Assembly: GCF_030159955.1 (NCBI RefSeq)
Contig: NZ_BSNK01000002.1
Location: forward strand, 372,001-436,000
DNA: 64,000 nucleotides
Source: Algimonas ampicilliniresistens
GTDB taxonomy: Bacteria > Pseudomonadota > Alphaproteobacteria > Caulobacterales > Maricaulaceae
Reading direction: 5' to 3'
Shown: piece by piece, positions 7,755-13,186 of the stretch
Position numbering within the stretch: position 1 is the stretch's first letter
Layout: each line of letters begins with the position of its first letter
The notes under the pieces: generated by a model
Seen by the model: the letters and a program-made list of their open reading frames with translations, nothing else
Told to the model about the DNA's origin: nothing
The model's database searches: none
Made by a program: the position numbers and the translations under genes

Positions 7755-8129
7755 TTATTCAACCGTTACATCAAGTCGCATTTTCGGGTGGATGGCGCAA
7801 CGCACTTGAAAACTACCTGCGGCGGTAAATTCGATGTCCCGCGTTTCACCTTCCTCCATAGAGCCGGAATCGAATGTCATCGTTTCCTCATCAATGAAGG
7901 CGTGATGCAGGAAGATGTCATCATTGACGATCCGCAGCTTATCGCCTGTCTTAATTGTGACGGCCCCCGGCGCATATTTCCGCTTTTTCTGAGAGATGGT
8001 GATGACGTCCTGAGACTGGGCCAAAACGCCCGCGGGAAAAGCGATCAGAGAAATCAGAAGCGCCTTGGCGCCGGTCGAGCCAAGTCCAAAATTACCAAGT
8101 CTGAAATGATGGGTCGGAAAACGGGTCAT
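7755..8129 (-). CDS. Cupredoxin-domain protein (methylamine-utilisation type)
   Basis: 124 residues: a hydrophobic N-terminal segment (about 20-37, signal peptide or anchor ending VLAQS) and a plastocyanin-like domain. Candidate type-1 copper ligands are His75/His76 (FLHHAF), Cys111, His114 and Met117 (VRCAIHPKM), in the correct order and spacing for a blue copper site. It should act in the periplasm as a small electron carrier. Its start overlaps the stop of the histidine kinase gene by 4 bp (8126-8129), and it is the last gene of the DUF3034-globin-kinase operon. Confidence 0.85.
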   Translation of the reverse strand: MTRFPTHHFRLGNFGLGSTGAKALLISLIAFPAGVLAQSQDVITISQKKRKYAPGAVTIKTGDKLRIVNDDIFLHHAFIDEETMTFDSGSMEEGETRDIEFTAAGSFQVRCAIHPKMRLDVTVE

Positions 8130-10006
8130 GCGGCATGGCTTTCAGTCTGGTGAGGAGTTTCAGTCATGGAACTGGATCGAGGGAAAATCACACTGAACAC
8201 GCTACCCTTATCGAGCGCAGATTGGATTTTGAGCTCTGCGCCGTGACGTTTGGCGATACGGTCAACGATACTGAGGCCAAGACCGGTCCCATCCACAGCT
8301 CGACTATAACCTTCGTCGACCTGCTGGAACGGTTGCAGAATGTGATCAAAATTCTTCGGATCAATTCCAATGCCGGTATCAATGATGTCGAGCCGGATCT
8401 GGCCTGTCTGTGTTTCAGAGAGTTGAGCTTTCACCGCGCCGCCAGAGCGATTGAACTTCACCGCATTGTCAAGCAGCTTGGCGGCAAGCTGCTTCAAATC
8501 CAACGCGTCGCCTTGCACACACTGCACGCGGCTAGGTTTGGTCCAAATGAGACGAACCCCAGTTTGCGCCGCGAGGTCGCGAACGCCAGAGACAGCCTGA
8601 TCGACAGCCTTGCCAAGGTCGACAGTCGACAAGGTCGCAGGGTCGATCACCTCTGTATCATCATTGGCGATCTCCAACACATCCCGTACAATTTGTGCAA
8701 TATGGCTACCACTTTGTGAAATCAGTCCGGCCATATCAGCATGGCTCGGATCGCGGCCCGGCTTGCGATATTCCAGCTGCAACATATCAGACAGACCGAC
8801 AATCGCATTGAGCGGTGTGTTAAGCTCATGGCTCATCGCCGCCATAAACATCGTTTTCGCGCGGCTGGCCGCTTCGGCAGCATCACGGGCTTGGCGTAAA
8901 TGCTCGGTCCGTTGTTTGGACTCCGTAATATCGCTCCAGATAAATAATCGCCCACCTTCGCGTGTGGCGGACGCGTTGACGCGTAACCAGCGCCCATCAT
9001 CCAGTTGGAACTCGCCGCTTTGTTGCGGTCCGTCTTGATTGAGGGCAACCGGGACGCCATCTGCGGCGAACAGCGTGCCGCACATTTGTCCGACTAAGGG
9101 CTGCTCAGACAGGTTTTGAAACAGCTGACCGACGCCGGGGTTGGCCACTATGATGCGGCCATCAATATCGGTCAAAAGCACGCCGTCTTTGGAGTTTTCT
9201 AGCGAGTCCGCCAAACGATGTTGCGCCAAAGTCCGCAAATCCTGTTCTTGCGCCATGCGGTCACGGATATTGGTCTGCATGGACCGCATCGATTTTAGCA
9301 GCTGCCCAGTTTCATCCTCACCCCCTTTGGGGATCATCACGTCCAATCGACCCGCGCTAATTTGGGCCGCCGCACCCGCCGCCGCCTTCAGCGGGCGAAC
9401 AATGGTCATCGCGATCCAAGCCGTCAGGCCGAGGGTCAAGATGAGCGCCGTGGCGACGGCGATTAGGCTGAATCGCCGAACCCGCGCCATGGTGGAGATA
9501 GCCTGTTCGCGATTGCGAAAGCTCTGATTGGTTTGCAGCTCGATGACGATATCGAGATTTTCTTCGATATCGTTTGAAAGCGCGGCATTGAGCTGTGCCG
9601 TTCCTGTTTGACCGAGACGCGCGCGTTCGCTTATTTCCCAAGACGAGAAATCACTCACGATATCATCAAAAAAACTCTCGGCGCGCGGGGCTATGGACCG
9701 GGCGCGCGCAACCTCAAGGTCTTCACGAAACTGCGTGACAAGCCGATCAAATTCAGCTTGCGGATTATCCACATCTGAGGGTCGCAGAGTTTCAATTTCA
9801 AGCGCCGCGAAAGTCTGGCCCGCAGAGCGCGCAAAGTTGACGGCCATCAGGGGGCGGTCAAACGTATCCGTTACCACCTGACCGGCATTATCAATCGACA
9901 ATAGCGCATAACCGCCGAGTCCGGCGATCAGCAGAGTCATCGCCAAAAACCCAGCGAAGAGCTTCGCCTTGACCGAAACCAGAAATTTGAACGGGCTCCG
10001 GATCAC
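8126..10006 (-). CDS. Membrane sensor histidine kinase (HAMP-PAS-HisKA-HATPase)
   Basis: 626 residues. TM1 is about 15-37, then a periplasmic helical sensor region of about 145 residues, TM2 about 183-203, HAMP to about 255, a PAS domain (about 265-360, DGVLLTDIDGRIIVANPGVG), the dimerisation/phosphoacceptor helix with MAAMSHELNTPLNAIVGL, and an ATPase domain with N-box LLDNAVKFN, IDTGIGIDP and GTGLGLSIV. It has no receiver domain, and no response regulator gene is adjacent, so its partner is unknown. The start overlaps the end of the hemoglobin gene by 4 bp, and the stop overlaps the cupredoxin start by 4 bp. Tight coupling implies joint function. Confidence 0.95.
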   Translation of the reverse strand: MIRSPFKFLVSVKAKLFAGFLAMTLLIAGLGGYALLSIDNAGQVVTDTFDRPLMAVNFARSAGQTFAALEIETLRPSDVDNPQAEFDRLVTQFREDLEVARARSIAPRAESFFDDIVSDFSSWEISERARLGQTGTAQLNAALSNDIEENLDIVIELQTNQSFRNREQAISTMARVRRFSLIAVATALILTLGLTAWIAMTIVRPLKAAAGAAAQISAGRLDVMIPKGGEDETGQLLKSMRSMQTNIRDRMAQEQDLRTLAQHRLADSLENSKDGVLLTDIDGRIIVANPGVGQLFQNLSEQPLVGQMCGTLFAADGVPVALNQDGPQQSGEFQLDDGRWLRVNASATREGGRLFIWSDITESKQRTEHLRQARDAAEAASRAKTMFMAAMSHELNTPLNAIVGLSDMLQLEYRKPGRDPSHADMAGLISQSGSHIAQIVRDVLEIANDDTEVIDPATLSTVDLGKAVDQAVSGVRDLAAQTGVRLIWTKPSRVQCVQGDALDLKQLAAKLLDNAVKFNRSGGAVKAQLSETQTGQIRLDIIDTGIGIDPKNFDHILQPFQQVDEGYSRAVDGTGLGLSIVDRIAKRHGAELKIQSALDKGSVFSVIFPRSSSMTETPHQTESHAA

Positions 10007-10551
10007 GGACTCGCTTCTGATGGGGTTTCAGGGTCTTGATCGGGGCCCATCCGGGTGATCGGAGCGACTGAATAACTGTCCGCTTTTGTCGTGCGCGGCG
10101 GAACAGGTGAGCGTTCAGTGACGTCATCATGCATTGGGGCGAGCCGTGCCAAAAAGCGGTTCTGAGTTCGAAACGGAATATCCTGATCATCCATCGCTTG
10201 CTGAAGGTTTTCCACCAGCGTGTTGAAATGGAGGGTGCGAATGCCGAGCCCATCATGGGCGCGGCGCATATCCTGCCCATCATAATCGCAGGGACCATCG
10301 GCAATATGGCAGGTATGGATGATGATCAGTTTTTCCAGCCGTTCCATATCCGAGTCCACAAAGATCGGAGCCATGCGCGGGTCGGCGAGCGCCAGATCGA
10401 GCATATCCGCAATGACCTTATCCATGACCGGCTTGCCGCCAAGATCATCATAGAGTGTGGACTTAGTCTTGTCCGACGCCTGCAGGGGTAGCGTTAGAGA
10501 CAGAGTTAGGGACGCGCCTAGAAGCAAAGCCTGAATAGCGGGTTTCATCAT
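10003..10551 (-). CDS. Exported group-1 truncated hemoglobin
   Basis: 182 residues. A signal peptide (LLLGASLTLSLTLPLQAS, cleavage near residue 26) precedes a compact globin: LYDDLGGKPVMDKVIADML, HTCHIADGPCDYDGQDMRRAHDGLGI with the proximal His99, and HFNTLVENLQQAMDDQDIPF. A proline-rich tail of about 35 residues follows the globin. Most truncated hemoglobins are cytoplasmic, so an exported one suggests gas (NO or O2) handling in the periplasm. It lies 1 nt after the DUF3034 gene and overlaps the kinase start by 4 bp. Confidence 0.9.
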   Translation of the reverse strand: MMKPAIQALLLGASLTLSLTLPLQASDKTKSTLYDDLGGKPVMDKVIADMLDLALADPRMAPIFVDSDMERLEKLIIIHTCHIADGPCDYDGQDMRRAHDGLGIRTLHFNTLVENLQQAMDDQDIPFRTQNRFLARLAPMHDDVTERSPVPPRTTKADSYSVAPITRMGPDQDPETPSEASP

Positions 10552-10552
10552 A

Positions 10553-11476
10553 TCAGAATCCTAGTTGGACGGAGCCGTAAAACCCCGTCTGTCGACCTTG
10601 AAGGGCGATCTCGCCCATATCGACGGCCGCCGCCGTTAAGGAGAGTGACTTGTTCGGAAACCAAGCCACAAAAGCGACCTTGGCATCACCCTCTGCTGCG
10701 AAGGCCAGATTGTCCGGTTTGGTTCGGTAATCTGCGCCGACGACCAGATCGCGCGACAGCATATAGGCGGCTGAGCCTTCGAACTGCGCCGAATAGCCAT
10801 CCTGATTGGGACCGCCAAAACCGAGTAGGCCCAGTTGATTGGCTTTGGTCCCGCGCAGTGACGCACTGAGCAACAAGTTTTTATCGAGCATCAATTTGGT
10901 CGCGGTTGCGTAAAAATCGACGCCGGAATGACTGCTCGCGCCGAGCGCTTTGACCAGATCGCCATTGGCCGATTTCTTGAACTGCGCGCCGACCGCGATC
11001 TGTGGCATGAGGCTATCTTGATCAAAGACCAGATCGCCCGCGACGCGTACCTTGGCGCCGACAATGTCCTGATGAAATTTATACCCCTGACGCAGGCCGA
11101 GTTTTGGCCCCGTATCGCCCGTATCAAACGTCTGCCGCGCATAAGAAATCTCGACCCGATTGCCCGCCCCAATGGCCGCGCCAGTCACTTCAAGATCGAA
11201 ATCGTTCAGTTTCGCGCGTGTGTGGAACGCCGTCGCGCCGTAACTATCGCTCGATCCGTAACCGGTAATCGTAGCCCAATTGGACAGCCCACTACCGCCC
11301 GCCCCTTCAACCTGACTAACCCCACCTGTGGCGAGCAAGCGACCCTTATCCGGACTTGGCAGAGAGCTGTTCGCGCAGGCAGACAGGCTTACACACGCCA
11401 GCAGGTTAATGGCGATGGCAATCGGTCGGACCACTCGATAGCGAGTCCGGTCCAATGAAATCGATCTGATGGTCAC
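10553..11476 (-). CDS. DUF3034-family outer-membrane protein with lipobox
   Basis: 307 residues. The body matches the DUF3034 family: RLLATGGVSQVEGAGG near the N-terminus, amphipathic strands throughout, LLGFGGPNQDGYSAQFEGSAAYML, and a terminal Phe (YGSVQLGF) typical of BAM-inserted barrels. The N-terminus also has a lipoprotein-like box (SLSAC, Cys34) after a long basic n-region, which is unusual for a barrel. It is the first gene of the operon with the exported hemoglobin, kinase and cupredoxin, and is divergent from the AbgT gene. The family has no established function. Confidence 0.85.
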   Translation of the reverse strand: MTIRSISLDRTRYRVVRPIAIAINLLACVSLSACANSSLPSPDKGRLLATGGVSQVEGAGGSGLSNWATITGYGSSDSYGATAFHTRAKLNDFDLEVTGAAIGAGNRVEISYARQTFDTGDTGPKLGLRQGYKFHQDIVGAKVRVAGDLVFDQDSLMPQIAVGAQFKKSANGDLVKALGASSHSGVDFYATATKLMLDKNLLLSASLRGTKANQLGLLGFGGPNQDGYSAQFEGSAAYMLSRDLVVGADYRTKPDNLAFAAEGDAKVAFVAWFPNKSLSLTAAAVDMGEIALQGRQTGFYGSVQLGF

Positions 11477-11593
11477 CCAGCTCTCCTCAATGACGAGGGC
11501 TGGAATAAATAGCTGACCTTAAGAATGTCTTGTCTCTGGCGGATCGACGCGATTAAGAGCGCGGTGAACTCCGATAACTATTCCGAGCGATCC

Positions 11594-13186
11594 ATGACTG
11601 ACACAACCGCTGACACATCCGACGCTAAAGGGTTTCTCGCCTGGGTCGAACGGTCCGGCAATAAGCTGCCTGATCCCGTTTTTATCTTCTTCTATTTGAT
11701 CTTAGTGTTGGTCGCGATTTCAGTCGTGGTTGCCCTATTGGGCCTGACCGCGGATCATCCGACGCAAGTCACAGCGGATGGATCGCCCGTTATTATCAAA
11801 TCGGCTTCGCTGCTTTCGGCTGAGAACATTCAACGTCTCTGGGTCGAGATGCCCAAGACCTTCACCCACTTCCATCCGCTCGGCTATGTGTTGGTCGTGA
11901 TGTTGGGTGCGGGCGTGGCGGAACGATCCGGACTATTTGCCGCAGGTATTCGCCAAGCCGTACGCGGCGCGCCGCTGTTCCTGCTCACCCCGGTCGTGGC
12001 GCTGGTCGCCATGTTGTCCAACCATGCGGCGGATGCGGGTTATGTGGTGATGATCCCACTGGCCGCCATTTTGTTTGCGTCGGCCGGACGTCATCCGTTG
12101 GCTGGGATTGCCGCCGCCTTTGCCGGTGTGTCGGGCGGGTTCTCCGCCAATATCTCACCGGGACAACTCGATGCGTTGCTGTTTGGCATTACCGAAGCCG
12201 CGGTTGACGGGTCGGGCCTTGATCCCAACTGGACCATGAACATTGCGGGCAATTGGTGGTTCATCGCCGCACTGATGGTGATCTATCTCCCTGTCATCTG
12301 GTTTGTGACCGACAAAATTATTGAGCCCCGTCTTGGTAAATGGGTGCCGGATGAGCGCCAAGCCGCCGAATATGGCGAAGAAGACAAGCCGCTTACAGAC
12401 GCACAACGCAAAGGCTTGCGCCGCGCGGGTCTTGCCATCTTGGCCGTCTGTGCGCTCTGGGCTGTTATGACCTTCGCACCGGGCACGCCGCTCCTAGCGG
12501 ATGAAACGGCGACACCGGGTCAAGCGTGGTATGTCACCGCGACCCCGTTTTTCCGCTCCCTCGTCGCCGGGTTCATGATCCTCTTCCTCGCCGCAGGTTG
12601 GGCTTATGGTAGCGCTGCCGGGTCGATCAAAAATCACCGCGATCTGGTCGATATGATGGCCGAAGCGATGAAGGATATGGGCTATTATCTGGTGCTGGCT
12701 TTCGCCGCCGCCCATTTCGTCGCCATGTTTAACTGGTCCAATCTGGGGCTGATTACCGCCGTACACGGCGCGAACGGCATCAAAGCTAGCGGCCTGCCGC
12801 TGCCACTGGCGCTTGGCCTGATCGTGATCTTTGCTGGCTTCCTCAACCTGTTTGTCGGCTCAGCCAGCGCCAAATGGGCGCTGCTTGCCCCCGTTTTGGT
12901 GCCAATGTTGATGCTGCTGGGGATTTCGCCCGAAGGCGCAACCGCCGCTTACCGCGTTGGCGACGGCGCGACCAATATCATCACGCCGCTGATGGTCTAT
13001 TTCCCGCTCATCCTGATCTTCGCCCAGCGTTGGCAGAAGGGTTTCGGCATTGGCAGCCTGACCGCGATGATGATCCCCTATTCGATCTGGCTGATGGTCA
13101 CGGGCGTTATCTTGATGATGCTCTGGATATTCCTTGGCATCGATTTGGGACCGGGCGCGCCGATTGGTTATACGCTGCCAGGTTAA
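11594..13186 (+). CDS. AbgT-family transporter
   Basis: 530 residues from ATG 11594; a 23-residue longer version from 11525 lacks family similarity. About a dozen hydrophobic helices. The FLAWVERSGNKLPDPVFIFF start, GVSGGFSANISPGQLDALLFGITEAA and the RVGDGATNIITPLMVYFPLI block identify the AbgT family (p-aminobenzoyl-glutamate uptake in E. coli, sulfonamide-type efflux in some homologues). It is an inner-membrane ion-coupled transporter; the substrate cannot be told from sequence. The next gene (GNAT) starts directly at the base after its stop, implying a two-gene operon. Confidence 0.95.
   Translation: MTDTTADTSDAKGFLAWVERSGNKLPDPVFIFFYLILVLVAISVVVALLGLTADHPTQVTADGSPVIIKSASLLSAENIQRLWVEMPKTFTHFHPLGYVLVVMLGAGVAERSGLFAAGIRQAVRGAPLFLLTPVVALVAMLSNHAADAGYVVMIPLAAILFASAGRHPLAGIAAAFAGVSGGFSANISPGQLDALLFGITEAAVDGSGLDPNWTMNIAGNWWFIAALMVIYLPVIWFVTDKIIEPRLGKWVPDERQAAEYGEEDKPLTDAQRKGLRRAGLAILAVCALWAVMTFAPGTPLLADETATPGQAWYVTATPFFRSLVAGFMILFLAAGWAYGSAAGSIKNHRDLVDMMAEAMKDMGYYLVLAFAAAHFVAMFNWSNLGLITAVHGANGIKASGLPLPLALGLIVIFAGFLNLFVGSASAKWALLAPVLVPMLMLLGISPEGATAAYRVGDGATNIITPLMVYFPLILIFAQRWQKGFGIGSLTAMMIPYSIWLMVTGVILMMLWIFLGIDLGPGAPIGYTLPG

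Follow-up and report, generated by a model that had tools for sequence, protein, structure and literature searches.

A DUF3034, Truncated Hemoglobin and Cupredoxin Operon of Algimonas ampicilliniresistens as a Candidate Envelope Sensory System

H-NOX heme proteins are taken to be cytosolic. According to sections of a broad review of cyclic di-GMP (c-di-GMP) sensing (PMC8846402), an H-NOX is a separate heme protein that serves an HnoK kinase or a diguanylate cyclase-phosphodiesterase partner, NosP is a heme-based sensor of nitric oxide (NO) paired with the kinase NahK, and globin-coupled sensors join a globin input to a kinase or c-di-GMP output; the words copper and cupredoxin are absent from the main text of that review. 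Parts of a preprint on sCache_heme (DUF3365) describe extracytoplasmic heme-based NO sensing that feeds signaling proteins, the heme being covalently bound within the Cache domain (PMC12889525). Here we describe a four-gene operon in a 64,000-nt stretch of Algimonas ampicilliniresistens DNA (the window; assembly GCF_030159955.1, contig NZ_BSNK01000002.1, positions 372,001 to 436,000). In our estimation the operon probably constitutes an envelope sensory system, a periplasmic heme/copper sensor with exchangeable outputs, for which we infer the sensor role, the docking, the electron step and the ligand. The system resembles H-NOX and NosP in its working but is a member of neither, and its parts are unrelated to theirs. 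All four genes lie on the minus strand between window positions 7755 and 11476, in the order DUF3034, globin, kinase and cupredoxin:

10553 to 11476, minus strand: DUF3034 gene (Pfam, 323 bits), a predicted 12-stranded outer-membrane beta-barrel
10003 to 10551, minus strand: exported group 1 truncated hemoglobin (Pfam Bac_globin, 50.6 bits)
8126 to 10006, minus strand: membrane histidine kinase in which no receiver domain was found (Pfam HAMP 45.9, HisKA 50.1 and HATPase_c 85.4 bits)
7755 to 8129, minus strand: short (amicyanin-like) cupredoxin (Copper-bind PF00127, 25.3 bits; cut-off 21.2)

The differences from the described systems lie in the components. H-NOX has another fold and NosP is a FIST-domain protein, whereas this locus combines an outer-membrane barrel with a copper protein and a truncated globin that is exported; scanned against Pfam up to E 1, the four window proteins matched neither the HNOB heme domain nor the FIST domain. 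Unlike in sCache_heme, heme and copper are expected here in separate proteins. Globin-coupled sensors fuse globin and output in one protein, whereas the window genes are separate and no globin was found fused in one frame with another profiled family in 150 loci. The FecA-FecR-FecI system likewise ties an outer-membrane barrel to a signal output, and one related locus (L123) has an ECF sigma factor and an anti-sigma factor; here, however, the barrel is modeled with 12 strands, has no TonB-receptor match and is accompanied by soluble heme and copper proteins.

The component families are known but the set, as a system, looks undescribed, as the original prediction had proposed; a search of the open-license literature found no description of a DUF3034-globin-cupredoxin-receptor system. 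In the sections concerned, PMC3770913, PMC11976967 and PMC11102522 deal with other truncated hemoglobins. Two mentions of DUF3034 were set aside: one in the legend of a retron paper reads like a slip for DUF3037, and one in a passage of a Streptomyces paper refers to a 251-residue integral membrane protein, unlike this family.

Linkage of the genes across genomes

The genomic data reveal the parts of the system, their linkage, its two-unit structure, the exchange of outputs and the match between cupredoxin and sensor. Of 398 genomes sampled from the phylum, 39 have DUF3034, as do 36 of 250 sampled from the order; four of the DUF3034 genomes are common to both draws. The loci compared comprised 70 that were fetched and the best 80 of 360 relatives, a sample tilted toward relatives of the search alignment; dropping seven with an identical DUF3034 domain left 143, the window excluded. 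Genes were called by six-frame profile searches together with a GC3-weighted caller, and loci were classed from profile scores and distances, with Pfam run on examples.

The globin gene adjoins DUF3034, on the same strand throughout, in 140 of the 143 non-redundant loci, and the linkage persists in each of four gene arrangements, of which one is represented by a single case. Members of the globin subfamily (>130 bits; next best 85) occurred in 36 of the 250 order genomes, 35 of them among the 36 with DUF3034; in the single DUF3034 genome left over (G585), a DUF3034 fragment adjoins a globin fragment. A long form of the cupredoxin, scored at 130 bits or more with an alignment of 20 cupredoxins from DUF3034 loci (13 came from the phylum draw), was present in 37 of the 39 DUF3034 genomes of that draw versus 13 of the 359 others (Fisher 1.2e-38, kinship ignored). 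The two DUF3034 genomes lacking a long-cupredoxin match were G078 and the window's own, which has the short form instead. A neighborhood search for DUF3034 with globin and cupredoxin was the check suggested in the original prediction, which would have given way had the genes not been found together in other genomes; they form a conserved unit, and the reading is therefore not refuted on that ground.

Within the window's genus, three of nine genomes drawn carry DUF3034, and in the other six neither the globin alignment nor the short-cupredoxin alignment found a match. Named hosts include Caulobacter, Brevundimonas, Phenylobacterium, Azospirillum, Caballeronia, Lysobacter, Arenimonas and a Xanthomonas. 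A Caulobacter vibrioides genome used as a control gave no DUF3034 match. Among the named hosts the DUF3034-globin pair extends over alpha-, beta- and gammaproteobacteria, and the complete set, receptor included, over alpha- and betaproteobacteria, with the c-di-GMP version present in Brevundimonas alba (L181) and Caballeronia grimmiae (L207), for example; the Azospirillum, Arenimonas and Xanthomonas loci have barrel and globin and no clear receptor. Since the pair or the full set occurs in named proteobacteria, culturable hosts are available for study. Three of 13 matching plasmid records were examined. Two, from Caballeronia, are annotated with DUF3034, a group 1 truncated hemoglobin, a "methylamine utilization protein" (the long cupredoxin) and an EAL protein, and the third, from Novosphingobium, with DUF3034, a group 1 truncated hemoglobin, a carboxypeptidase-like protein and an EAL protein. 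Beyond the set itself, no gene family recurred in more than four of 70 clustered loci, the gene caller being poor in GC-rich loci.

Exchange of outputs and the cupredoxin-receptor unit

The receptor varies among the 143 loci. A dCache-HAMP-GGDEF-EAL protein is encoded in 77; the window-type sensor is present in 17 loci classed as kinase and in five with GGDEF-EAL (4HB-PAS-GGDEF-EAL by Pfam on examples); one has an ECF sigma factor with RskA; two gave a partial match; and in 41 no receptor was recognized within 5.5 kb, although 12 of these have a cupredoxin. One locus (L078) encodes a hybrid kinase with two receivers according to Pfam. The sigma factor and RskA-type anti-sigma factor (L123:7373-8806), an output seen once, stand directly behind DUF3034, globin and long cupredoxin. 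Of 53 GGDEF-EAL proteins from the first 70 loci, all have the EAL motif and 10 the GGDEF motif, which makes c-di-GMP breakdown the likelier activity. The original prediction had counted the kinase as a member of the system. It is indeed present in the window, but it is one output of several and not a defining part, being replaced by other outputs in most loci.

The type of cupredoxin goes with the sensor domain in the periplasm and not with the output: wherever a dCache-GGDEF-EAL locus has a cupredoxin, it is of the long form (75 of 75), and the short form is found in all 22 loci with a window-type sensor, irrespective of whether these were classed as kinase (17) or GGDEF-EAL (5). The system therefore seemingly consists of two units, barrel plus globin and cupredoxin plus receptor. 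Eight of the 250 order genomes have a short cupredoxin of at least 100 bits, and these coincide with the eight in which a DUF3034 locus of the kinase type is present; the alignment used contains sequences from the window's genome and two others of the eight. In five of the 37 genomes with DUF3034 and long cupredoxin, the latter is located apart from DUF3034. Seventeen such separate cupredoxin places were fetched, from these five genomes, two second copies and ten genomes without DUF3034. A c2-type receptor gene directly adjoins the cupredoxin in 13 of them (12 strong matches and one weak, at 102 bits) and none does in the other four. The cupredoxin-receptor pairing thus looks like the tightest link in the set. 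In two loci (L137, L193), a long-cupredoxin/c2 pair lies ~5 kb upstream of DUF3034, besides a lone cupredoxin adjoining DUF3034. In another (L202:5663-6751), cupredoxin and c2 receptor matches share one frame, as a fusion or through a sequencing or assembly frameshift, and this case was not counted.

Components of the operon

Pfam matches over cut-off bore out the placement and families of the four genes given in the original prediction, and its spacing of 1 bp followed by two 4-bp overlaps was also correct (gaps of 1, -4 and -4 bp for DUF3034/globin, globin/kinase and kinase/cupredoxin). Both overlaps had been given as ATGA; this is true of kinase/cupredoxin, but between globin and kinase the overlap reads GTGA, the start codon of the kinase being GTG. 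A relative of the kinase (L062) starts at the same place as this GTG. Export signals had been proposed for DUF3034, globin and cupredoxin, and judged by hydropathy and sequence inspection each has a single N-terminal hydrophobic segment. By Pfam, the operon is flanked downstream by an alpha/beta hydrolase gene and upstream by a divergent AbgT-family transporter gene (11525-13186, plus strand); thus no receiver gene adjoins the kinase, in agreement with the earlier description. The finer features to which the text refers are as follows:

10559 to 11242, minus strand: barrel strands of DUF3034 (residues 79-306), from the strand list of the structure model
10309 to 10311, minus strand: globin Cys81, probable disulfide partner of Cys88 (globin alignment)
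10288 to 10290, minus strand: globin Cys88, probable disulfide partner of Cys81 (globin alignment)
10255 to 10257, minus strand: globin His99 (F8), proximal heme ligand, His in 147 of 147 globins
9467 to 9892, minus strand: periplasmic sensor region of the kinase (~residues 39-180), between two hydrophobic regions
7779 to 7799, minus strand: copper loop C-x2-H-x2-M of the cupredoxin (Cys111, His114, Met117), with the fourth ligand, His75, at 7905 to 7907

A membrane barrel in the structure model, an export signal and an aromatic C-terminus suggest that DUF3034 is an outer-membrane beta-barrel; the chain ends in F, Y or W in 138 of 150 loci (duplicates counted). Among the matches listed by VIA-align, the top structural matches were FapF, VhGalP and KdgM, with FapF and KdgM sharing 10-12% identity with DUF3034 where they align. 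Scanned with Pfam up to E 1, DUF3034 matched PF11231 alone and no TonB-receptor domain; a search of phages for DUF3034 gave no match. The sequence LSAC at residues 31-34, in the signal region (11375-11476), could be a lipobox. A Cys near this position is also found in two relatives (L062 and L064), and a lipidated barrel would be unusual. In one locus (L134:6950-7909), which has globin, kinase and cupredoxin, DUF3034 is split over two frames by a frameshift or an assembly error, and genome G078 has, besides an intact copy, a broken second one (G078:C3:72638-73313) with three fragment matches, one containing a stop.

The globin has the Bac_globin domain and the 2-on-2 fold of a group 1 truncated hemoglobin and belongs to the HbN group. 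It shares with HbN the fold and the F8 His and differs in being exported, in its Cys pair and in its apolar B10 and E11 residues (Leu51 and Ile76). Both Cys residues are present in 139 of 147 globins, neither in seven, and one row is gapped (133, seven and one of 141 without duplicates); the pair is a probable disulfide, judging from the alignment. B10 is V, L, M or I in 133 of 147 and Tyr in four, and E11 is L, F, I or V in 146 (one gap) and Gln in none. An HbN-type NO dioxygenase, for which Tyr B10 and Gln E11 are the expected pair, was rejected on this basis. A C-terminal tail of ~36 residues past the globin fold (10003-10113) was modeled with a predicted local distance difference test (pLDDT) score of ~60.

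In the kinase, hydropathy places hydrophobic regions at ~residues 20-38 and 181-199, and the ~140 residues between them correspond to the periplasmic loop that had been proposed. HisKA and HATPase_c identify a sensor histidine kinase, with HAMP in addition; as for its description as a PAS kinase, the best PAS match fell just below the cut-off (26.9 versus 27). The periplasmic region is probably a four-helix bundle as judged from sequence, sub-cut-off Pfam matches in relatives being to TarH (L078) and 4HB_MCP_1 (L151 and L166); the same scan matched neither family in the window kinase. No widely conserved Cys or His was found in the first 300-340 residues of the receptors. The commonest Cys column is filled in four of 50 dCache and three of 22 four-helix sensors and the commonest His column in 19 of 50 and four of 22, respectively. 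A metal site inside the receptor is not supported by these sparse columns, and heme and copper are therefore probably held by partner proteins. The Cys counts also do not indicate covalent heme of the sCache_heme kind, although CXXCH itself was not scanned for. One locus (L062:6879-10827) has a tandem pair of window-like kinases, a duplicated receptor, between globin and cupredoxin.

The cupredoxin is a type 1 copper protein by sequence, with its ligand set intact: the His-Cys-His-Met ligands are invariant in the 12 short cupredoxins aligned, and the 20 long ones aligned all have the corresponding residues. Its best sequence match in the PDB is amicyanin, with which it shares the C-x2-H-x2-M loop. 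An amicyanin of methylamine oxidation was nevertheless rejected, as its score is far below the cut-off (25.9 versus 110.2 bits) and the flanking genes are the hydrolase and AbgT, with no adjoining mau genes.

Proposed working and its alternatives

In the proposed sensory system, unit one would consist of the channel-like DUF3034 barrel in the outer membrane and the periplasmic truncated hemoglobin, probably pinned by its disulfide and apolar at B10 and E11, and unit two of the type 1 copper protein and the inner-membrane receptor. A ligand or redox signal would reach the globin heme near the outer membrane, with the barrel admitting the cue or holding the globin at that membrane. The ligand or oxidation state of the globin would be handed to the cupredoxin, most simply as an electron, and the cupredoxin would dock on the periplasmic domain of the receptor in a redox-dependent manner and change its output, which is a histidine kinase in the window and probably c-di-GMP breakdown in most relatives. 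NO would be the first choice of cue, followed by O2 or a redox-active compound, because B10 and E11 of the globin are not the O2-stabilizing residues of HbN and because, according to parts of the review cited above, partner proteins often mediate the action of NO on c-di-GMP enzymes (PMC8846402).

Several observations weigh against this reading. The profiles and alignments behind the counts were built from DUF3034 loci, partly in the genomes counted, and kinship is uncorrected. An adjacent globin is absent in three of the 143 loci; in one of these (L066, genome G606), the globin is encoded at another place, where it diverges from a dCache-GGDEF-EAL gene. In 29 loci both cupredoxin and receptor are missing from the vicinity; eight of these extend less than 3.5 kb to one side and four are in genomes with a long cupredoxin elsewhere; genome G606, where the globin adjoins the receptor gene away from DUF3034, is among these cases. 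Long cupredoxin is carried by 13 of the 359 genomes without DUF3034, and unit two can therefore do without unit one. Four receptor-like proteins of Lysobacterales adjoining long cupredoxin are only 346-375 residues long (L138, L140, L149, L159); their loci are among the 12 with a cupredoxin but no recognized receptor, and the one scanned with Pfam (L138:5792-6832) ends after HAMP with no output domain. The match between cupredoxin and sensor rests on few events, because on a quick DUF3034 tree of 141 rows each changes only twice, with four output changes; these counts, like the 17 kinase loci above, include L150 as a kinase, although the contig ends before its output domain.

The genome context does not point to NO either. 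Copper nitrite reductase scored over the cut-off in nine of the 250 order genomes, none of the 36 with DUF3034 versus nine of the 214 without (Fisher p 0.37), and a link to denitrification is thus without support. Boxes for FNR, NsrR, CueR and CRP-like regulators were not clearly enriched, relative to 20 block shuffles, in 143 upstream regions (200-250 bases each) of DUF3034, which is not always the first gene. FNR/DNR boxes with up to two mismatches numbered 14 (shuffle mean 10.05, maximum 18) and with up to one mismatch two (mean 0.5, maximum 2); CueR-like boxes numbered nine (9.7 in shuffles), CRP boxes seven (8.75) and NsrR half sites none (0.1).

A more specific form of the sensory reading, which we put forward tentatively as the less probable case, is a trans-envelope heme-copper wire: the globin, held at the outer-membrane channel, would convert a cue, gaseous or redox, into an electron, which the cupredoxin would then ferry through the periplasm; by docking on a receptor that has no cofactor of its own, the cupredoxin would set the kinase, c-di-GMP enzyme or sigma factor. 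If true, the proteins of this modular class of sensors would signal to one another by passing an electron.

Truncated hemoglobins are capable of NO turnover, and cupredoxins are electron carriers. Globin and cupredoxin might thus primarily form a periplasmic redox enzyme for the turnover of NO, peroxide or O2, fed by the barrel and regulated by the kinase or EAL protein, as membership of the globin in the HbN group would allow. We regard this as unlikely, since apolar residues replace Tyr B10 and Gln E11 of HbN in nearly all globins, no further gene family recurs in more than four of the clustered loci (with the caller's weakness in GC-rich loci), and the cupredoxin accompanies a receptor, apart from globin and DUF3034, in 13 of the 17 places fetched. 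Rather more doubtful is copper handling, in which the barrel would pass copper, the cupredoxin would carry or report it, the receptor would respond and the globin would be an accessory. It is improbable, and more so than either of these, that the barrel moves a surface or matrix polymer in the manner of FapF or KdgM, with c-di-GMP linking it to biofilm and the heme and copper parts sensing stress locally; the best structural matches of the barrel and the intact EAL motif of the commonest receptor, a GGDEF-EAL protein, are in keeping with it, but fold alone does not reveal function and the same lack of a further recurrent gene family counts against it. Chance grouping or passive hitch-hiking, to which the patchy occurrence within genera (three of nine genomes in the window's) might point, is scarcely credible and largely refuted by the counts, kinship uncorrected, because linkage is retained across many families and through rearrangement and the six same-genus genomes without DUF3034 also lack globin and short-cupredoxin matches.

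With the sensory reading, DUF3034, a family without an assigned role, gains a setting and a testable job. The system would put globin sensing outside the cytoplasmic membrane and would connect kinase and c-di-GMP signaling with an electron carrier that uses copper. Taken as a whole, the recurrence of related sets with other outputs in many bacteria points to a hitherto undescribed means of sensing, beyond the cell membrane, a gas or redox state.

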